A DNA stretch of 64,000 nt from Pelobacter sp. (GTDB lineage: Bacteria; Desulfobacterota; Desulfuromonadia; Geobacterales; Pseudopelobacteraceae), in assembly GCA_030824515.1 (NCBI GenBank), contig JAVBXN010000002.1:1-64000 (forward strand), given 5' to 3'. Shown one piece after another: positions 28,193 through 55,947 of this stretch. The notes beneath the pieces were generated by a model that searched no databases, was not told where the DNA came from, and was given only the letters and a program-made list of their open reading frames with translations. How positions within the stretch are numbered: position 1 is the first letter of the stretch; the number at the start of each line of letters is the position of its first letter. Both the position numbers and the translations under genes were made by a program.

Positions 28193-28411
28193 ATGCCAGG
28201 CTCTTACCCGGCCCCCGAAACACTTGCAAACAATGCGCTTGACACCCTTAAGCAGGCCTACGAGGAGAGACAGACACCCAACGTGGGATCCCTGATCCTT
28301 ACGGCATACGACACCATAGCGCGATTGAAACAGGAAATCGCCACACGTCGCAATGACGACGACCTGCTACTGGATCGTTATGAGTTGAATGAGTTTAATT
28401 CCGCTGTCTGA
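28193..28411 (+). CDS. Small helical hypothetical protein upstream of the CPBP protease
   Basis: 72 residues with a strong ribosome site (AGGAGGCAGTCC before the ATG). The sequence is soluble, helical and charged: ETLANNALDTLKQAYEERQ, SLILTAYDTIARLKQEIATRRNDDDLLLDRYELNEF. No Cys, membrane segment or known motif is seen. Its last 23 bases overlap the start of the CPBP protease gene in another frame, which suggests translational coupling. No family recognised; the strong ribosome site supports it as a real gene. Confidence 0.65.
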   Translation: MPGSYPAPETLANNALDTLKQAYEERQTPNVGSLILTAYDTIARLKQEIATRRNDDDLLLDRYELNEFNSAV

Positions 28412-29105
28412 CACAACCGGCATGAGACCAGCCACCTGCCGTTTTCTTCCATTTGCAGTCTTCATGGCATTTATCGGCCTTGACGAGCTGTTGCGCATGC
28501 TGATGACGCACGGTTTCCTCAAGCTCGAGCCGACTGCGCTCTATTACCTGTATCCGCTGAAGGCTCTGGTAGTCGCCTGGCTCCTGTTCCATTTCAGAAA
28601 AAGCTATACGGAACTGGAGTTCAAGGAGCTGCTATCGTTTCCGACAACCCTGGCCATATCCGGAGTGGGGTTGCTGGTATTCGTGCTCTGGATCAACATG
28701 GAATGGACAATCGGCTCGTCCTCGACACCGCAAGGCTTTAATCCGATGACCTTTCCGGAGGGTGCGATCCGAAACAGCATGATCTTCTTCAGAATAGCCG
28801 GCGCCGTACTGGTTGTGCCGCTGATGGAGGAGCTTTTCTGGCGTTCTTTCCTGATCCGCTACATCACTGACAGCAACTTTGAAAGTGTCCCGATTGGAAC
28901 ATTCACCTGGGCCTCTTTCCTGCTCACGGTCGTACTGTTCGGTGCGGAGCATAACTTCATCTATGCCGGCATGATGGCCGGCGCAGCCTACAACCTGATC
29001 CTCTACAAGACCCGCAGCCTGGCCCAGTGCGTGCTGGCCCACGCCGTGACTAATCTGGCGCTGGCGATCTATGTGATTGCCACCGGGAAATGGCAATTCT
29101 GGTAG
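28389..29105 (+). CDS. CPBP (CAAX-like) intramembrane protease, exosortase-associated type
   Basis: 238 residues; a second possible start is the ATG at 28422, and neither has a clear ribosome site, so coupling to the upstream gene is likely. Multiple membrane helices surround the three CPBP motifs: EELFWRSFLIR (Glu-Glu and Arg), FGAEHNFIYAGMMAGAAYNLIL (His), and HAVTNLALAIYV (His, Asn). These residues form the glutamate-type intramembrane protease site. A CAAX-protease-related subgroup is a known companion of exosortases in PEP-CTERM systems, and the PEP-CTERM, PrsR/PrsK and XrtA genes follow within 8 kb. A role in further processing of sorted proteins is inferred. Confidence 0.88.
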   Translation: MSLIPLSDTTGMRPATCRFLPFAVFMAFIGLDELLRMLMTHGFLKLEPTALYYLYPLKALVVAWLLFHFRKSYTELEFKELLSFPTTLAISGVGLLVFVLWINMEWTIGSSSTPQGFNPMTFPEGAIRNSMIFFRIAGAVLVVPLMEELFWRSFLIRYITDSNFESVPIGTFTWASFLLTVVLFGAEHNFIYAGMMAGAAYNLILYKTRSLAQCVLAHAVTNLALAIYVIATGKWQFW

Positions 29106-29132
29106 ACATTAGATTCAGTTCAATTTTAAACG

Positions 29133-29576
29133 TTTACACCCCACCCCACACATCTCTTCAGCACCCGTCGAAATTCTTTACACAACCCTAAGCTTCAGCA
29201 AATATCTCCAGTGATATAAGCAAGTTAATACTTCGCATACCGTCGGCGGCTGATGGATATTTCACAACCGTTCATGAATCCATTTTGCAAGACTGGTTCA
29301 GTCCTATTGACATTACCGAAACTGGCTATTTGGAGCAACCACTGCTTAAATGCAGTAAAAGACGACTCAAAACCGGATATGTTTTCAAAAAAGTGGCACT
29401 ACGTCAGCGATGTCTTTTCTTTTAACTATTTTATGCAGTAACAGGCCGCTTTAACCGAAGCCCTCGTCCCCCCTGCAGCACGACAATCAGTCCAAATTTA
29501 ATGTTGAAATACTTTACACTCCACAGGCCAAACAACTCCTATTTACACATATCGCTGTTATTACGGTGCTTTACAA
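29133..29576 (+). promoter_or_regulatory. Repeated TTTACAC boxes upstream of the PEP-CTERM gene
   Basis: TTTACAC occurs at 29133-29139, 29177-29183, 29513-29519 and 29542-29548, and TTTACAA at 29570-29576, all in the same orientation. The last three are 28-29 bases apart and end at the sigma-54 promoter. The remainder of the 557-base gap 29106-29662 has no credible gene. The boxes are candidates for activator (PrsR) binding, but that link is not established from sequence. Confidence 0.5.
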
Positions 29577-29578
29577 TA

Positions 29579-29594
29579 TGGCACCACATTTGCT
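29579..29594 (+). promoter_or_regulatory. Sigma-54 (RpoN) promoter of the PEP-CTERM gene
   Basis: TGGCAC-CACAT-TTGCT is a full match to the -24/-12 consensus TGGCAC-N5-TTGCW. It lies 69 bases before the ATG at 29663. The sigma-54-dependent regulator PrsR is encoded directly downstream on the opposite strand, which fits the PrsK-PrsR-RpoN control of PEP-CTERM genes described in other bacteria. Confidence 0.88.
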
Positions 29595-29662
29595 TATACA
29601 ATACTAACATAAGCAAATTCTTAATTGCGTGAACCGCAATACTTTAAAAGGAGGAAATAATA

Positions 29663-30346
29663 ATGAAAAAGCTAGCGACATTACTGGCAGGGGCAGCATT
29701 GATATTGGCAGCAGGTAGCGCATGGGCAATCCCAACATTGAGGCTAAGTGATGGATTTACCACCATAATGATAGCTGATGGGTCAGCCCTTGATGCTAAC
29801 ACAGAGGTAGGGGCCGTTACATATGTTGGAGCTGTTGGCCAAAACTGGACGTTGAATGTCGCAACAGGTATAACCATGCCATTTCAAGGGACAGCTCTTG
29901 TTCCATATATGGATTTAAACTCGGTAAACTCCTCAAGCGGTGCAGGCTCACTTGAAATACTGTTTAGTGAAACTGGTTTTATCAGCAACCCTCTTGTTAA
30001 TGGTTTTAGAACGGATGTTGGCGGCACCACCCAAGGAACCTTTGAAGTGCGATCGTTCTTTGATGTCAATAATGCTCTGTTCGGCACTACCGGCGCTCTT
30101 GCTGATCTCGGTCCTTATTCTGCGGGTTCGTTTTCTGGATCAGAGACTAACATTGCTGATACAGGTAATGATGGCGACCTTTACTCTTTGACACTTGACG
30201 CAATTATTACTCACACAGGTCGAGGAACAACTAGTTTTGACGCTCAACTTACCCCAGTTCCCGAGCCAGGCACAATGGTTCTGCTCGGCGCCGGCCTGCT
30301 TGGTCTGGCCATATTCGGCAAACGCCGCATGAACAAGGAAGCCTGA
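29663..30346 (+). CDS. PEP-CTERM sorting-domain protein
   Basis: 227 residues with AAGGAGG before the ATG. A Sec signal peptide (LATLLAGAALILAAGSAWA) exports it. The mature part is low in Cys, rich in Ser, Thr, Gly and Asn, typical of extracellular matrix-type proteins (SVNSSSGAGSLEILF, YSAGSFSGSETNIAD). The C-terminal 29 residues are a textbook PEP-CTERM signal: VPEPGTMVLLGAGLLGL, then IFGKRR. Exosortase XrtA (35587-37179) should cleave here. It is expressed from a sigma-54 promoter, followed by a strong terminator, and faces prsR convergently. Confidence 0.95.
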   Translation: MKKLATLLAGAALILAAGSAWAIPTLRLSDGFTTIMIADGSALDANTEVGAVTYVGAVGQNWTLNVATGITMPFQGTALVPYMDLNSVNSSSGAGSLEILFSETGFISNPLVNGFRTDVGGTTQGTFEVRSFFDVNNALFGTTGALADLGPYSAGSFSGSETNIADTGNDGDLYSLTLDAIITHTGRGTTSFDAQLTPVPEPGTMVLLGAGLLGLAIFGKRRMNKEA

Positions 30347-30455: not shown

Positions 30456-31868
30456 TCACGGTAACATGTCAGGTGCTTTTTCTGTCGAAGTAAGCGGGGT
30501 TAGATTGTGCTTTTTTAATAGATCATAAAGAGTAGGGCGGCTGACTCCCAACTCCTCAGCCGCTTTGACTATGTTGCCATTGTGGCGGTCTATCGCAACC
30601 GAAATCAGGTTTCGCTCAACAGTATCCCTTGCTTCACGCAGGGTTACGATCGGCCTTTCTTCAGTGTCCACATCCGGTCCATTAGGCATTTCCGTTTCAT
30701 GACCCAGGTCTACTGGTTCAATAACCGCGGCGTCACTCATGATAATCGCCCGTTGGATGCGGTTCTGCAACTCTCGCACATTGCCAGGCCACTCATAGCT
30801 TTTCAGATAATTCACCGCAGCGGTACTGAATCTACGCACTTTCTTTTTATATTCATCATTGAATTTTCGCAGGAAAAAGTTGGCCAGCAGCAGGATATCG
30901 TCGCCCCTTTCCCGAAGCGGCGGCAGTGCGATGGTAATAACGCTGATCCGGTAATAAAGATCCTCCCGAAAACGTCCCTCGCTGATTGCCTTGACTATAT
31001 CCACATTTGTGGCACACACGGTACGCGTATCAATGGAGATATTCTCCCGGCCGCCAACCCGCTGAATGACTCCTTCCTGCAGGAAGCGAAGCAGTTTCAC
31101 CTGCAAATTGAAGGGGAGTTCGCCAATTTCATCCAGAAACAATGTACCTTTGTTGGCATACTGCAGCTTTCCCTGCACCATGGCATGCGCGCCAGTAAAA
31201 GAGCCCTTTTCATGACCGAACAACTCCGACTCCAGCAAGTTTTCCGGTATGGCACCGCAGTTGATCGGAATGAAGGGGCCCTTTCTGCGGATGCCGGCCT
31301 CATGGATTGCCTGGGCAACCAGTTCCTTCCCAGTGCCACTCTCACCTGTAATAAAAATCGACACGTCGGAAGAGGCTACTTTCTTGATCGTGGCAAAAAC
31401 AGTCTGCATAGCCTGGCATTGACCGATGATGCCGCTGGCGTTTGCGGATTGAAGACCGATCGAGCTTTGAAGCTGCCGATTCTGTCCCTCTATGTTGGCC
31501 AGGTGGAAAGCACGATTGATGATCACCTTCAGTTCACTCAGAACCGGGGGTTTCGGGTAGAAGTCATAGGCGCCCATCTGCATTGCTTTAAGTGCATTTT
31601 CGCGTTCACTGTTACCGGTCAGCATTATGATCTTGGCATGCGGATTAATTTCCAGCATCTCGGCCAGGGCCCGGAAACCTTCTACCGAAGTATGTTCATG
31701 GGGAGGCAGTCCCAAATCCAGCAACACCACTCCAGGCATGAATTTCCTGTACAGATTGAGAGCATCATTGACGCTGCCGGCCAACAGCACGGCATACTCT
31801 TCTCCCAACCCCCACTTTAATTGCTGACGAATATCCTGATTATCATCGACTATCAGAATTTTTTCCAC
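30456..31868 (-). CDS. prsR: PrsR: sigma-54-dependent response regulator of PEP-CTERM genes
   Basis: 470 residues from a GTG start at 31868 (AAGGAG upstream), 10 bases after the prsK stop. Receiver domain 1-120 with Asp8-Asp9 pocket and phosphoacceptor Asp51 (VVLLDLGLPP). AAA+ domain with Walker A GESGTGKE, the sigma-54 contact loop ESELFGHEKGSFTGAH (GSFTGA where most have GAFTGA), and LFLDEIGELP. A Fis-type helix-turn-helix (IVKAAEELGVSRPTLYDLLKKH) closes the protein. It should activate sigma-54 promoters such as 29579-29594. PrsK directly upstream is the cognate kinase. PrsR lies between the PEP-CTERM gene it likely controls and the rest of the locus. Confidence 0.94.
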   Translation of the reverse strand: MEKILIVDDNQDIRQQLKWGLGEEYAVLLAGSVNDALNLYRKFMPGVVLLDLGLPPHEHTSVEGFRALAEMLEINPHAKIIMLTGNSERENALKAMQMGAYDFYPKPPVLSELKVIINRAFHLANIEGQNRQLQSSIGLQSANASGIIGQCQAMQTVFATIKKVASSDVSIFITGESGTGKELVAQAIHEAGIRRKGPFIPINCGAIPENLLESELFGHEKGSFTGAHAMVQGKLQYANKGTLFLDEIGELPFNLQVKLLRFLQEGVIQRVGGRENISIDTRTVCATNVDIVKAISEGRFREDLYYRISVITIALPPLRERGDDILLLANFFLRKFNDEYKKKVRRFSTAAVNYLKSYEWPGNVRELQNRIQRAIIMSDAAVIEPVDLGHETEMPNGPDVDTEERPIVTLREARDTVERNLISVAIDRHNGNIVKAAEELGVSRPTLYDLLKKHNLTPLTSTEKAPDMLP

Positions 31869-31878
31869 GGTCTTCTCC

Positions 31879-33957
31879 TTATGCGGATTCGGATAATGCA
31901 GCTGTTCCGTGATCTTCCATATTGCTGAACCAGACGGTAAAAACCGTCCCCCTGCCGGCGACACTGGCCACCTCGATCCGACCTCCATGAGCTTCAACAA
32001 TCTTGCGACACTGATACAGCCCTATACCAAGTCCATGGCTCTTTGATGTCCTGAATGGCTTGAACAGCTCGTTGCGGATATAATTGGAAGTCATACCGCA
32101 CCCCCAATCCGTAACCCGGATATATGGAGCCGAACCGGAACCGACTTCTATGACAACCGGCTCATGCGACTCTGACGCCTCAATGCCGTTCATCAACAGG
32201 TTCATGACAACATTTCGGATCTGCTCCTCTTCAACACTCACCATGACCGGCTTTCCCGAAACAATGATTTTGAAGCCGGTTACCGATTCAGCGGTATTTT
32301 TGACCAACTCCAGCAGGTCAATCAGCTGTGGATTATGGACTTCCTTCTCACCCAGGTTTTTCAATCGGGCAATCAGCTTCTGCATCCTGAAAACGGTGTT
32401 GCCCAACGACTCAAGCATGTCCTGCTGAAATTCGGGATTTTGAATATGCCGGGCGGCATTTTCAACAATCAGGGAAAGATTTGAAACCTGGTTTTTAAGA
32501 TCATGCGCAACAAATGTGGCCACATTTCCAATCGCTTCTATTTCACGGGTATGGGAGATCTGCTCCGAAAGTTTCTGGTGCAGAATGGCGAGCGAAGCCT
32601 GCCTGGCAATCGTTTTCATCAAATCGTAATCTTCATAGATATAGGTTTCATCATCCTTTATTATACGCCCCAGGGCGATAAACCCTTCCAGATGCGTACC
32701 GTCAAAGAGTGGAACAATGAATGATATCTCGTTATTCCTGAAGAAATGACTGTTTTCAGACATGATTTCAGGGTTTTCATCCTTGATGCAGACTACCCAA
32801 TCATTCTTTTCCATAAAGCCAACCAGAGAATTTTCCCGCGCAATGCTGCCGCTGATCGATTCCATGCGATAGTTGGCCGTCACACCGTATTCGCCGCAAC
32901 TGTCCTCGTACAGAAACAGGGCAGCTCCGTCGATTCCGAAAATATCGCAATAGGCGGCAAGAATCCGTTCCAGCAGTTCATCTGAAGTGAGTGATGTGGA
33001 AAGTTCCCGGGTGAAACTCAGCCACTGGGTCCGGTAATCGTGCTTATGCTGGTAGAAATTTTTGTGCAGTGCAACCTTAACTTCGCGCCGGACTCGCCCG
33101 GACAGCATCAGGATCAAAAGCGCAATACCAAGCAGGAATACAAATGATACGGTTACTGTGCGGGGAAAAGAAACGCCAAAATGCTGCATCCCTTCCCCGA
33201 GAAAACCGATCAGCAACAGATAAATACCGACTGCGACAAGAACAACCGATTTGAATGCCGCCTGACGTGAAACCTGAATCCGGACCTTCCCGCGCACTCT
33301 TAACATGGAATAAGCCATCATCGCTGCAGCCACCAGATACATCAGGGAGCGAACCGGAAGATAGCTCATATTAAGAGTGCGGTACAGCAAGGCCTGACTG
33401 TAGTAGAAAATCAGTACCGCAAGTATGGTTCCAATACCTATAACGTCGAACTTGATCTTGAACTGGGCGCTGGGTGAAGCATTGGCAAAGGTTTTCTCAA
33501 AGTTCACCAAACCGCACACAAGCCACACCATGATCCCAAGATAATAGAAATAGCCGATGTTATTAAGAAAGAGAATCCGCTCTGCAGGAAAATCAGGTGC
33601 ATAGAAAAATATGTCGAGCGGCTCGATGAACGGTAACAGCACGGGCAAAAATGACAGGGCTATTACCGCTTGCAGTGGACGGCCGATTTTCCATGGACCG
33701 GCCTGTCGCGCGAATGTCAGACTGCTGATAAGCCATAAGGGGGGGAGGAGGGACTCGGTAATCAACGCGCACCGCTTCCAAAATATGGCATCCACGCCAG
33801 CAGTGAGTGCCATCAGATCAAACAGCTCCAGCAGTGCGGTTACAACAAGCGCCGCACAGAAATACAGCCCGGAGCGTGAGCGGTCCCTGGCAAGGGACAA
33901 ACCGGTCAGCGCCAGCAAAGCAACCACCGCAGTTATGGATATAACCGTATTGTTCAT
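31879..33957 (-). CDS. prsK: PrsK: membrane histidine kinase of the PEP-CTERM system
   Basis: 692 residues from the ATG at 33957 (weak ribosome site; a TTG at 33999 is possible). About nine N-terminal membrane helices (TAVVALLALTGLSLA, GIGTILAVLIFYYSQ, AFKSVVLVAVGIYLLLIGFLGE, TVSFVFLLGIALLILML) are followed by a GAF domain (ELLERILAAYCDIFGIDGAALFLYED) and a kinase core with phospho-acceptor His in ATFVAHDLKNQVSNL. ATP-binding boxes are VMNLLMNGIEA, RVTDWGCGMT and GLGIGLYQCRKIVEAHGG. This is the PrsK architecture of exosortase loci. It pairs with PrsR ten bases downstream. The membrane domain may sense envelope state; the signal is not known. Confidence 0.93.
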   Translation of the reverse strand: MNNTVISITAVVALLALTGLSLARDRSRSGLYFCAALVVTALLELFDLMALTAGVDAIFWKRCALITESLLPPLWLISSLTFARQAGPWKIGRPLQAVIALSFLPVLLPFIEPLDIFFYAPDFPAERILFLNNIGYFYYLGIMVWLVCGLVNFEKTFANASPSAQFKIKFDVIGIGTILAVLIFYYSQALLYRTLNMSYLPVRSLMYLVAAAMMAYSMLRVRGKVRIQVSRQAAFKSVVLVAVGIYLLLIGFLGEGMQHFGVSFPRTVTVSFVFLLGIALLILMLSGRVRREVKVALHKNFYQHKHDYRTQWLSFTRELSTSLTSDELLERILAAYCDIFGIDGAALFLYEDSCGEYGVTANYRMESISGSIARENSLVGFMEKNDWVVCIKDENPEIMSENSHFFRNNEISFIVPLFDGTHLEGFIALGRIIKDDETYIYEDYDLMKTIARQASLAILHQKLSEQISHTREIEAIGNVATFVAHDLKNQVSNLSLIVENAARHIQNPEFQQDMLESLGNTVFRMQKLIARLKNLGEKEVHNPQLIDLLELVKNTAESVTGFKIIVSGKPVMVSVEEEQIRNVVMNLLMNGIEASESHEPVVIEVGSGSAPYIRVTDWGCGMTSNYIRNELFKPFRTSKSHGLGIGLYQCRKIVEAHGGRIEVASVAGRGTVFTVWFSNMEDHGTAALSESA

Positions 33958-34032
33958 ATTCGCTTTCAGGCTACTTTCGCGTACCGCGTTCCAGCCCAAT
34001 AATCTTTAAACCTTAAACTTAACAATGCAGTT

Positions 34033-35586: not shown

Positions 35587-37179
35587 TTAACCAGGCAGAA
35601 ATCCTTGTATAGTAGGGAAGACATCCCTTAAAAAACGTTCTCCAATAGCTATGGCAGCCTGTTGGTCTGTTTCAAATGGCACCGAAATGCGGATAAAAGC
35701 GGTGTCCCGGCGCCTGTACAATAAGGAATTGGTTATCTCTGCAAGTTTGAGGGAATATTCGTCATTAATGGTCTTACTCCGTGCCTGGAACCAATAAATG
35801 AAGACTTCTTTGTCTGATCCTTTCTGATAAACTGACTGCACCAAATTTATCTCAGTTCCGCTTAGATTCATCACTTTTTTTCCCGTCGAAACTTCATACC
35901 AGCCGCTTCCAGGCAGGCAATGTTTAGGAGAATGGATACCTCCACTGTCCTTGCCGCCGCCATGATAACCGATGTACAGACTCACCTTCTTTCCATCTGT
36001 ACTCACATACTGGCGAGCGAGAGTATCGGTTGCCTTCAGCACCTTCTGAACATTGGCCGACAGGTAGGATTCGCCAACCATGCGCCAGCTGGAAATTGTA
36101 GTTGGAAATTGATCAAACGACTTCTTGATCGGAACCTGCAGATCCTGATGAATATTTATGTACAAGCCGGCTGCGCCAAACATGATCAAAACAGCGACAA
36201 AAATGGGTATGGAGACACAGCAGTTTTCGCTCACGTCCTTTTTTTTCAGCTCCTTCACTTCTAATACTTCAAGGCTTTCCTTCTGTTCCCTGTCCTCTGT
36301 TCTCTGTACACTGTCCTCTGCCAACTGCCTTTTGTCCTCTGTCTTCTTCCCCAATCGCATCAAAACAGCTCCGAAAGAGACCAACATCACCATTGCCAAT
36401 CCGAAAACAGCGAGGCCTGCAAATTCATGAAAGAAACCTTGAGCTGCCTTCTCTCCCCAGTGTTGTGCAAGCAGGCCGGTTATAATAACCCGCATGGCAT
36501 TGGTGAAAATCGCAATGGGAATCGCAGAACAGATCAGTAGCCATCGTTTCCATGGAGCAATCTTTATAAAGAACGCAAATGCGACTGCAAGTGCAAGCAG
36601 AGATATCAGCGAGCGGATACCGCTGCAGGCGTCCGCAACTTCAAGCGTTGTAGCCGGGAACATGATGATATTGCCTTCACGCACAACCACGACACCGATA
36701 ACTTTCAGTGAGAGGACAGAAACCTTGGTAACAAACAATTTCAGCGGAAATGCAACCGCATCGTAGATTATATAGGGAATCGGAACCATGAAGAACAGGT
36801 AGCCAATCGGCAAGGTAATCGCACGGAATACAGCGGGACCGAAAAAGGAGAGAACCAGCCCGGCCAGCAGAACTATCAACGATGAACGCATCGTGAAATA
36901 CTCTGTTCCAAGCCAACCGATCAACAGCTGAAAAAGGCCGAAGATAATTACCAGTAAACCTGGTTTCCAGGTTACTACCCTGGTGTCCTTAATCTCTGGC
37001 CATCTGGTGTAAAAGAAATAGCCGGCAATTAGCGGGACGAGAAAACCATGCGAGTAGTTTTCGTCCTGAGACCATTGCTGCACCATCTCCGGAACAATTT
37101 TGGCATAAATAGCAATCAGAAGGAGTAGCAGAACCATCAGGTGCCAGCGACACGTTTTCAGCGACTCGTAAAAAGTCAT
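35587..37179 (-). CDS. xrtA: Exosortase A fused to an EpsI-type domain
   Basis: 530 residues. The first 270 are an exosortase: about eight membrane helices with catalytic Cys185 (EVADACSGIRSL), Arg230 (IFTNAMRVIITG) and His251 (GFFHEFAGLAVFG), the three residues that define the family. Residues about 275-315 are a charged linker encoded by a low-complexity repeat (36281-36350). Residues about 325-525 form a membrane-anchored EpsI/DUF3485-like domain (SFDQFPTTISSWRMVGESYL, GIHSPKHCLPGSGWYEV). XrtA cuts PEP-CTERM tails; EpsI has an unclear role in the linked polysaccharide. The fusion is known in other exosortase A loci. It is followed 32 bases upstream by the phosphatase-like gene. Confidence 0.94.
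   Translation of the reverse strand: MTFYESLKTCRWHLMVLLLLLIAIYAKIVPEMVQQWSQDENYSHGFLVPLIAGYFFYTRWPEIKDTRVVTWKPGLLVIIFGLFQLLIGWLGTEYFTMRSSLIVLLAGLVLSFFGPAVFRAITLPIGYLFFMVPIPYIIYDAVAFPLKLFVTKVSVLSLKVIGVVVVREGNIIMFPATTLEVADACSGIRSLISLLALAVAFAFFIKIAPWKRWLLICSAIPIAIFTNAMRVIITGLLAQHWGEKAAQGFFHEFAGLAVFGLAMVMLVSFGAVLMRLGKKTEDKRQLAEDSVQRTEDREQKESLEVLEVKELKKKDVSENCCVSIPIFVAVLIMFGAAGLYINIHQDLQVPIKKSFDQFPTTISSWRMVGESYLSANVQKVLKATDTLARQYVSTDGKKVSLYIGYHGGGKDSGGIHSPKHCLPGSGWYEVSTGKKVMNLSGTEINLVQSVYQKGSDKEVFIYWFQARSKTINDEYSLKLAEITNSLLYRRRDTAFIRISVPFETDQQAAIAIGERFLRDVFPTIQGFLPG
36281..36350. repeat. Low-complexity TCCTCTG/TTCTCTG repeat inside xrtA
   Basis: On the plus strand the stretch is built of degenerate heptamers such as TGTCCTC, TGTTCTC, TGTACAC and TGTCCTC, with six CTCTG or CCTCTG units. 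Read as protein on the minus strand it gives a Glu/Asp/Lys/Arg/Gln-rich linker (TEDKRQLAEDSVQRTEDREQ). Heptamer tracts like this are usually intergenic; here one joins the exosortase and EpsI domains in frame. Confidence 0.75.
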
Positions 37180-41989: not shown

Positions 41990-42766
41990 TTAAATTTCAT
42001 TTGGCACCACATCACTACAATTTTTATTCTTCATTCTCTTTATCAGCATGCCTATACCAGCAAGACCGGCGAAGAGCAATGAGAACGAGGATGGTTCGGG
42101 AGTAGGAATTGGCTTTTCAGACACTGAAGCGTAAAGTTCTCCTCCTGCCATAGAGCTATAATACTCATAGGCATAAGCCATGGTATAAACAGAGTAGTCT
42201 AAAGAAAACGACTCGCCCGGGGCAAGGACACCAAGAAATATATTATGTGAAGCGACCACTTGATCAGGGCCAGAAAACTCAACATAAGGTGTGTTAAAAA
42301 GCGCGGAATCAATTACTGTTGCTTGATTATAATAGCCGTAGTTTGCTACCTGCACATTGTTTACCATAACATTAACAACACCTGTTGAGTTGCCTCCTTC
42401 TAAATGATCCAAGGAATATCCAGGGTTTAAATTGAATATATAATTTAGATCGAGATAGTATTGATTTTGAAAAGTGCTGGTATTTACGATATCCAGATTT
42501 AGCCAGGATCTGGAATAGACTGAACCATCCGCCAGGCTTAGCATATCGGAACGTGTTGTCAGGTGTCCCGCTGTTGATGCTGTTGCTCTCGCCACGCCCC
42601 AGGGTCTTTCAGAAAAGGTTTCAAGGTAGCCGGAGTTGCTTGTTACATATGTGTCTGGCATACAAAAGCCATGAGTTTCAACACCGATCAACGTTGCATT
42701 TGAAACGCCTGTAATCACACATGAAAACAATATCGAAATGAAACAAAGAGAGATTTTTTTTAGCAT
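41990..42766 (-). CDS. Second PEP-CTERM sorting-domain protein
   Basis: 258 residues from the ATG at 42766 (AGGGAAG upstream). Signal peptide KISLCFISILFSCVITGVSNA. The mature part is Tyr-, Ser- and Asn-rich (YYLDLNYIFNLNPGYSLDHLEGG) without a known enzyme motif. The tail is a PEP-CTERM signal: PTPEPSSFSLLFAGLAGIGM followed by LIKRMKNKN, with nine extra residues after the basic cluster (CSDVVPNEI), more than usual. No sigma-54 box lies within the 59-base gap before it, unlike the copy at 29663-30346, so it is probably carried on the polysaccharide transcript. Confidence 0.92.
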   Translation of the reverse strand: MLKKISLCFISILFSCVITGVSNATLIGVETHGFCMPDTYVTSNSGYLETFSERPWGVARATASTAGHLTTRSDMLSLADGSVYSRSWLNLDIVNTSTFQNQYYLDLNYIFNLNPGYSLDHLEGGNSTGVVNVMVNNVQVANYGYYNQATVIDSALFNTPYVEFSGPDQVVASHNIFLGVLAPGESFSLDYSVYTMAYAYEYYSSMAGGELYASVSEKPIPTPEPSSFSLLFAGLAGIGMLIKRMKNKNCSDVVPNEI

Positions 42767-54767: not shown

Positions 54768-55947
54768 GAAACCCCTGTTTAGAATAGCCGCTATAATACC
54801 GCTCGTAGAAACTAACATACTGACTTACAACAATTTCAGTAGTCCACATCTGCATGGCCCTTGTTTTTGCCCGTTGCGCCATACAAGACGCATAATCCAT
54901 ATCACCGCAAAGGGAGATGACTTCCTTAGCAAGCTCTTCAGGATCCTCTGGTGCCACCAATTTACCGCATTGCCCGTCATCCAGTATAAACGCAGCATCT
55001 CCCACTCTGGTAGCTACTATCGGCTTTGCGGCCGCCATATATTCCACCAATACGTTGGAAAAGCTTTCAGATCGTGAGGGCTGAACAGCAATGTCGAATG
55101 CAGCAATCAATGTATTGGCATCCTGGGTACTGCCCCAGAAGACAACACAGTCAGCAATTCCCATATCGGCAGTGAGCTTGCGCAACTCGCTTTCTTCAGG
55201 TCCACTTCCCACGAGCATGAACCTTGCTTTAGGAATTACTTCATGCACCTTGACAGCTGCCTTCAAAAACACATCCGCGCCCTTGACGTGGCGCAAGTTT
55301 CCAACCACTCCGATGATCAGATCATCTTGACCAATGTCGCATTTGCATCGAGCCATCTGGCGCGATAGCGAGTCAAACAAATCAGGATCAACACCATTGG
55401 GTATTACTGAAATTTTTTCTGTCGGGACATTTTCCAGTTCCATGCAAACATCTCTGGCACAGTAGGAATTTGCCAGAACAGCCTGTGCAGAATGCACAAG
55501 CCGCTTCCCTATTTTAAATCGTAATGGATCCTCTTTTATCCAATGGTAGAGGTTTCTCCGTGTTGCAATTAATACAGGTCGTTTAGCGGAGAAAAGTGCC
55601 GCCAGAGATCCATAGATTTCCGACTCTACGAACTGGGTTTGCAAAACATCAATATTACTGTTTTCCAAGTAGTTCTTTATTCTGCGAACGAGACTGATAT
55701 TCTTCAGCAACGGGAAGCCAGACCAGTTAAAATTAATGATTGGCGTCTCGAGTCGTAACCCTCGACTGAATTCAGTTTCGCGCAGGACTCCAATTACCGG
55801 TTCAAACCGTTCCCGAGGCAATGATTCCGCCAGGAAAATGAGCTGTTTTTCGGTCCCCCCTACCTGAAGTTCATCGATCAGAAACATGATGCGAATCTTT
55901 TTGTTCGCTAACTCACCGACTTCATCGTTAAAGGCACATAAGCTCAT
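54760..55947 (-). CDS. Family 4 glycosyltransferase
   Basis: 395 residues from the ATG at 55947 (ATGA overlap with the preceding gene). GT-B signatures: IMFLIDELQVGGTEKQLIFLAESL at the N-terminus and VIPNGVDPDLF, IGVVGNLRHVKGADVFLKAA, ARFMLVGSGPEESEL, ADCVVFWGSTQDANTLIAAFDIAVQPSRSESFSNVLVEYMAAAKPIVATRVGD at the C-terminus, with the E-x7-E pair (SESFSNVLVE). It retains the NDP-sugar donor site. Acceptor unknown. It sits between the GT2 and flippase genes in the core of the export unit. Confidence 0.92.
   Translation of the reverse strand: MSLCAFNDEVGELANKKIRIMFLIDELQVGGTEKQLIFLAESLPRERFEPVIGVLRETEFSRGLRLETPIINFNWSGFPLLKNISLVRRIKNYLENSNIDVLQTQFVESEIYGSLAALFSAKRPVLIATRRNLYHWIKEDPLRFKIGKRLVHSAQAVLANSYCARDVCMELENVPTEKISVIPNGVDPDLFDSLSRQMARCKCDIGQDDLIIGVVGNLRHVKGADVFLKAAVKVHEVIPKARFMLVGSGPEESELRKLTADMGIADCVVFWGSTQDANTLIAAFDIAVQPSRSESFSNVLVEYMAAAKPIVATRVGDAAFILDDGQCGKLVAPEDPEELAKEVISLCGDMDYASCMAQRAKTRAMQMWTTEIVVSQYVSFYERYYSGYSKQGFHE

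Follow-up and report, generated by a model that had tools for sequence, protein, structure and literature searches.

Upstream of proteobacterial PEP-CTERM genes, Haft et al (2006; BMC Biol 4:29, PMC1569441) described a 17-nt motif that carries TTTACA at its 3′ end, is sometimes repeated and is followed, after a mean of 62.8 nt (SD 10.6, range 32–92), by a sigma-54 motif. The motifs were found before 99 of 167 such genes, and PrsR was inferred to be the activator that reads them (PMC1569441). The core idea, a 17-nt TTTACA motif combined with a sigma-54 promoter and read by PrsR, has therefore been known since 2006. For DVUA0057, a predicted PEP-CTERM regulator of Desulfovibrio vulgaris, DAP-chip enriched the five predicted targets, and the part of that study considered here states that no binding motif was validated (Rajeev et al, 2011; PMC3333781). 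The pepA gene of Aquincola tertiaricarbonis is an RpoN-dependent PEP-CTERM gene with a mapped start (PMC9850573).

We analysed a 64-kb stretch of DNA (hereafter the window) in which a PEP-CTERM gene is preceded by a predicted promoter of this kind (P1). As in the site of Haft et al (2006), 17-nt motifs with a 3′ TTTACA are present (29502–29518 and 29166–29182), the spacer of P1 lies within the published range (60 nt), the start codon follows the sigma-54 motif at a similar distance (68 nt here, published mean 71 nt), the gene downstream encodes a PEP-CTERM protein, and both PrsR and PrsK are encoded in the genome. Unlike the present locus, that site was described without two-peak phasing, an IHF-like element or a degenerate second promoter. 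The pepA promoter is comparable in its TGGCAC and CTGCTT elements, its RpoN dependence and a previously predicted enhancer upstream, but belongs to another organism, and its spacing and PrsR binding are not dissected in the part of that paper considered here (PMC9850573); DVUA0057 likewise differs in organism and in a motif that its study, as far as considered, had not validated. Searches of one open-licence library returned no footprint of a PEP-CTERM response regulator on DNA and no report of either two-gap phasing or an IHF-like element at PEP-CTERM promoters. In IHF-assisted sigma-54 promoters of the NtrC/NifA type, activator site, bend and −24/−12 element are arranged in one face-sensitive loop. 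Promoters of the type considered here differ from these in having their activator site near the promoter and gaps that belong for the most part to two classes.

Main promoter and neighbouring genes

Table 1. Features of the P1/P2 region and of the genes around it (positions in the window; scores are those of the 17-mer box model or of protein profiles).
Feature	Position	Strand	Basis
CAAX-protease-related PEP-CTERM system gene, upstream	28389–29105	+	TIGR03008 263.7 bits (cut-off 81)
Bare TTTACAC, probably incidental	29133–29139	+	Box score 0.3
PrsR box of the degenerate second promoter P2, CGTCGAAATTCTTTACA (hexamer 29177)	29166–29182	+	Score 20.6, top of window
IHF-like element of P2, TATAAGCAAGTTA	29215–29227	+	8/9 consensus letters; usual place, −18 from P2 −24 element
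Degenerate sigma-54-like element of P2, TCGCATACCGTCGGCG, gap 50	29233–29248	+	One G of −24 GG is C
PrsR box of P1, TGTTGAAATACTTTACA, 60 nt to −24 element	29502–29518	+	Score 19.4, second best in window
Bare TTTACAC, probably incidental	29542–29548	+	Box score −7.8; place not kept in relatives
IHF-like element of P1, weak, overlaps hexamer 29570	29561–29573	+	6/9 consensus letters; matches conserved element −18 to −6 before TGGC
TTTACAA, not a PrsR 17-mer; promoter-proximal TTACA position, gap 3	29570–29576	+	Box score 1.3
Sigma-54 −24/−12 promoter P1, TGGCACCACATTTGCT	29579–29594	+	Exact match
PEP-CTERM protein gene (227 aa), predicted target of P1	29663–30346	+	TIGR02595 22.2 bits (cut-off 16); AGGAGG precedes start
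prsR, NtrC-type response regulator	30456–32000	−	TIGR02915 637.3 bits (cut-off 502.6)
prsK, cognate histidine kinase	31879–33999	−	TIGR02916 567.9 bits (cut-off 300)
Exosortase with C-terminal EpsI domain	35587–37179	−	TIGR03109 219.7 (cut-off 208), TIGR02914 133.6 (cut-off 42.8)

The first-pass annotation had proposed TGGCAC-N5-TTGCT as a perfect promoter of the PEP-CTERM gene, and by sequence this holds: the P1 element is the sole exact TGGCACN5TTGCW of the window, with a TGG-N10-GC core and TTGC at −12. When the window was scored with box, spacer and promoter models, built from 133 strict-pattern matches before PEP-CTERM ORFs in other genomes, P1 reached the highest composite score on either strand (49.8). 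Its box and −24/−12 element can be aligned in four relatives, in which the box is largely invariant. Given the box, its spacing, the sigma-54 motif, this conservation and the neighbouring genes, all of which can be read directly from the DNA, we are fairly confident of the overall explanation that 29502–29594 is a PrsR-dependent sigma-54 promoter of the gene at 29663–30346 and that P2, 336 bp upstream, is a weak or decayed duplicate.

The PEP-CTERM gene is convergent with prsR and prsK (Table 1). Because the TIGR02915 match begins at residue 48, prsR probably starts near 31859 rather than at the start of its ORF. Profile searches of the genome found one rpoN, one protein above the PrsR cut-off and 15 PEP-CTERM matches. 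A weaker second match in the window (42035–42103, reverse strand; 20.6 bits, cut-off 16) lies in a 289-codon open frame, and no PrsR-type promoter was found upstream of it in the window. The closest named relatives of PrsR (69–96% identity, 11 of 16 loci) come from metagenome bins labelled Geobacter sp., Geobacteraceae, Desulfuromonadales, Desulfuromonadaceae or Deltaproteobacteria. One PrsR relative with 72% identity (L335; G231:C3:127515–128918, forward strand) lies in a 1,185-residue open frame with one in-frame TGA. A scan of 20 prsR neighbourhoods from relatives gave a PEP-CTERM promoter in three (L314, L317, L319), a box and sigma-54 pair before another ORF in two (L316, L318) and no pair in 15; the gene adjoining prsR is therefore often not a PEP-CTERM gene of this type.

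Spacing and the element beside −24

To describe the spacing, 277 genomes of the class were searched with a strict pattern (TGTCG-N6-TTTACA, a gap of 31–92, TGGC-N9-GC). This returned 219 pairs (130 and 89) in 116 genomes, compared with eight (4 and 4) for the reversed pattern. The gaps of 120 pairs, the class to which P1 belongs, measured 59–64 and those of 55 pairs 47–53, giving 175 in-peak pairs; four gaps fell at 54–58, two at 65–69 and 38 elsewhere. Clustering the 197 readable pairs by similarity left 172 clusters with the same distribution (105 at 59–64, 46 at 47–53, one each at 54–58 and 65–69, and 19 elsewhere), and in the PEP-CTERM subset the peaks were centred at 49.9 (n = 36) and 61.3 (n = 98). 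A PEP-CTERM ORF lay downstream of 134 of the 175 in-peak pairs but of only six of the 22 other readable pairs (P = 8e-6); among the 41 in-peak pairs that had none by the rule used, eight ORFs ran off the stretch and 10 pairs had no ORF. A looser pattern applied to 39 genomes, including the one studied here, matched 88 times (11 times when reversed). In the 22 PrsR-positive genomes it showed the same two peaks and a further group at 70–72, and 47 of 64 matches there were in-peak compared with 12 of 24 in the 17 PrsR-negative genomes (P = 0.045).

A 10.5-bp periodicity over all gaps was not borne out, the best of nine single periods tried being 11.5. Since the two peaks are 11.4 apart, we claim no more than about one turn: in most pairs the gap is close to either 50 or 61 bp, values that differ by roughly one turn of the helix.

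A second regularity lies next to the promoter. IHF has the consensus WATCARNNNNTTR, and the columns before TGGC resemble it at a fixed place, starting at −18 or −19. Within the 50-bp class, the most frequent letter agrees with this consensus at eight of nine positions (at −17, T 0.47 and A 0.44); within the 61-bp class, starts −18 and −19 share the signal. The mean best score (of 9) was 7.42 (n = 36) and 7.52 (n = 98), compared with 6.66 and 6.82 for shuffles. Profile searches found eight proteins of the HU/IHF family in the genome; the best of them scored 111.3 and so fell short of the himA cut-off of 120.25, which, like the weak IHF-like match at P1, counts against the explanation proposed below.

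We propose that phosphorylated PrsR would bind the 17-bp imperfect dyad TGTTGAAATACTTTACA and that IHF or another HU-family protein would bend the IHF-like element just upstream of −24. The bend would bring PrsR onto the sigma-54 RNA polymerase, and the AAA+ ATPase of PrsR would open the promoter. Gaps of about 50 or 61 bp would follow because a loop this short is expected to need the box on the correct helix face. On balance we lean, by a little, towards seeing these promoters as tripartite short-loop switches, composed of a PrsR box at ~50 or 61 bp, an IHF/HU bend beside −24 and a sigma-54 core, with the window holding a second unit that is damaged at −24.

Somewhat less probable, yet to be taken seriously, is that the promoter-proximal element is not an IHF site and instead either belongs to a sigma-54 promoter of extended form or is an A/T-rich bend that the polymerase contacts. 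The element is fixed relative to TGGC, not to the box, in both gap classes, A/T-rich columns return at intervals of about 10 bp (near −29, −19 and −8), and P1 matches only six of the nine consensus letters (Table 1). The close fit of the 50-bp class to WATCARNNNNTTR speaks against this, as does a comparison among sigma-54 sites, in which those with a box scored a mean of 5.95 (n = 87) and those without 3.88 in a small control (n = 16); a small A/T-rich box-less control scored 4.45 (n = 11, P = 0.005).

A second unit upstream

The segment 29166–29248 follows the same plan as P1. This candidate, P2, was spotted by eye and scored only afterwards; its composite score of 33.3 is the second best in the window, the next unrelated place reaching 18.2, the reversed sequence 19.1 and none of 100 block shuffles more than 24.6. 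It carries TCGCATACCGTCGGC, with the −12 GC in register. Because one G of the −24 GG is a C, P2 may be weak or dead, and despite its 50-nt gap it falls outside the −24 GG/−12 GC spacer rule of Haft et al (2006). We read it as a duplicate that has weakened or decayed, its −24 element being damaged. When 29106–29660 was compared with other loci by blastn, it matched, in relatives, the P1 region and the sequence that follows, and it also matched short stretches at the box of P2; no trace of a lost PEP-CTERM gene was found between the two promoters.

That P2 is instead an active second promoter of the same gene seems to us unlikely, if by no means far-fetched. The best box score of the window, the well-matched IHF-like element, a gap within the second peak and the −12 GC all speak for activity, and another predicted promoter of the genome (L020) has TAGC, a variant that affects this same G. 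However, the sigma-54 part of P2 scores 2.2 compared with 19.5 for P1, and the leader of such a transcript would be ~400 nt long.

At one locus of a relative (L319 of G012, positions 189 and 1753), two tandem PEP-CTERM genes stand beside prsR, each with a promoter of its own (gaps 72 and 59). This layout is a possible ancestral arrangement for the P2–P1 pair.

Activator, hexamers and regulon

PrsR (Table 1) is the best candidate activator of P1. Of 22 genomes with PrsR, the present one included, 15 have strict in-peak pairs and seven have none; of 17 genomes without PrsR, four have such pairs (P = 0.0095). The four genomes without PrsR above the cut-off (G009, G010, G021, G032) carry six in-peak pairs (L242, L246, L247, L252, L253, L212), of which three precede PEP-CTERM ORFs, one precedes another ORF and two have no ORF by the rule used. 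Protein searches found no close PrsR in these four genomes, the best PrsR-like proteins being about 43% identical in two and absent at E 1e-100 in the other two. Another activator may act there, the assemblies may lack a PrsR that the organisms have, or these pairs may be relics.

We consider it improbable that another NtrC-type activator reads the box in the present genome. Many NtrC-like proteins are encoded in it, and boxes persist in the few PrsR-negative relatives just named; against this stand the higher frequency of in-peak pairs in genomes with PrsR, the position of prsR next to the PEP-CTERM gene, and the backing of PrsR by a published profile (PMC1569441) and, in the part of that study considered here, by the D. 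vulgaris DAP-chip data (PMC3333781).

The working unit that emerged for PrsR is a 17-mer near TGTYGRAWWWCTTTACA together with a spaced sigma-54 element. It is present at 11 of the 15 PEP-CTERM genes of the genome with scores of 23.6–42.9, compared with at most 17.1 in 450 shuffles, and at none of the eight exact sigma-54-like sites not adjacent to any of these 15 genes (maximum 17.3). The lowest-scoring positive (L023, 23.6) has a weak sigma-54 part (4.2), and another (L019, 28.7) has an unusual gap of 69. The unit is absent from the remaining four PEP-CTERM genes (L011, L018, L022, L025), which score at most 10.4. One of these, L011 (C49:156349–156417, reverse strand), has a full PrsR box, TGTCGGCATTCTTTACA, before its PEP-CTERM gene; the sole sigma-54-like element found, CGGCACACTTCATGCT, is 105 nt off, beyond the usual gaps.

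Simpler predictors performed poorly. TTTACAC alone was rejected, as it occurs 316 times in the genome, below the 380 of the reversed pattern. The exact sigma-54 pattern alone gave 10 sites (three when reversed), two of which have a box and a PEP-CTERM gene. A relaxed pair pattern (24 matches compared with 12 reversed, overlapping matches counted) was dropped for the 17-mer composite model because it was too noisy. A different sigma-54-like repeat family was also seen, in which TGGCACATTCGTTGCT occurs in three places (L003, L004, L006; C19 and C42) that resemble one another upstream (TTGTCAAAACAAGAA); two of the three are at the ends of contigs.

The first-pass annotation had taken five TTTACA(C/A) hexamers upstream of P1 as candidate PrsR recognition elements. 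Their positions on the forward strand (TTTACAC at 29133, 29177, 29513 and 29542, TTTACAA at 29570) and the 28–29-bp steps between the last three were correct, the successive steps being 44, 336, 29 and 28. TTTACAM is at chance level across the window (16 compared with 13.9 expected), but the local cluster is not, with five on the forward strand of 29106–29662 compared with 0.18 expected and none of 5,000 shuffles reaching five. On their 17-mer scores (Table 1), 29177 and 29513 are boxes and the other three are not: these two are the top box scores of the window on either strand, the third best being 17.1. Isolated box-like 17-mers at 31347–31363 (reverse strand, 17.1) and 55420–55436 (forward strand, 15.8) overlap long open frames and have no high composite score. 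The claim thus stands for 29177 and 29513, which carry the full 17-mer, and falls for the bare hexamer and for a site of three or five regularly spaced boxes.

The related promoters agree. TTTACA occurs at gap 31, the position of 29542, in none of 134 and at gap 32 in one, and eight box-bearing promoters of named relatives have no second TTTACA within 140 bp. At gap 3, the position of 29570, TTACA occurs in 19 of 134 (0.3 expected) and TTTACA in three (0.1 expected). Neither 29542 nor 29570 is preserved as TTTACA in the four aligned relatives, and the regular 28–29-bp tandem array is not conserved. The five hexamers would therefore not form one array: 29513 belongs to the P1 box, 29177 to the P2 box, and 29570 coincides with the IHF-like element. 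In the 200 bp that precede the main box, 51 of 130 related promoters do have additional 17-mers that resemble the box in at least 10 of 12 letters on either strand (seven matches expected from shuffles); these lie on both strands and with many offsets near 21–24 and 31–34, about one turn apart. Despite these and the dense local cluster, it is very improbable that the array running up to the promoter is the PrsR site on which several dimers load, since the rest of the 17-mer is missing at 29133, 29542 and 29570, gap 31 is empty, only the 29513 box is kept in the aligned relatives, and 29570, at 3 nt from the −24 element, falls where one would expect the polymerase itself. As far as sequence can tell, the array gives way to an intact promoter and a damaged one, whose geometry is phased and probably includes a site of bending.

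PEP-CTERM proteins and exosortases have their place in the formation of exopolysaccharide, flocs and biofilms, and the region described here would be the on-switch of the gene for a biofilm-associated surface protein and, in all likelihood, a genuine member of a published promoter kind. The binding site of PrsR was predicted in 2006 and has stayed a prediction; the bare TTTACAC hexamer calls for caution as a predictor, and regulon calling from it, as first suggested, does not work, whereas the full 17-mer with its spacing and sigma-54 element succeeds at most PEP-CTERM genes of the genome. With a precise rule for box and spacing, the regulon becomes callable, and phasing, box and bend become open to sharp tests. 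If the tripartite geometry is true, the regulon could be called by geometry, not by hexamer.
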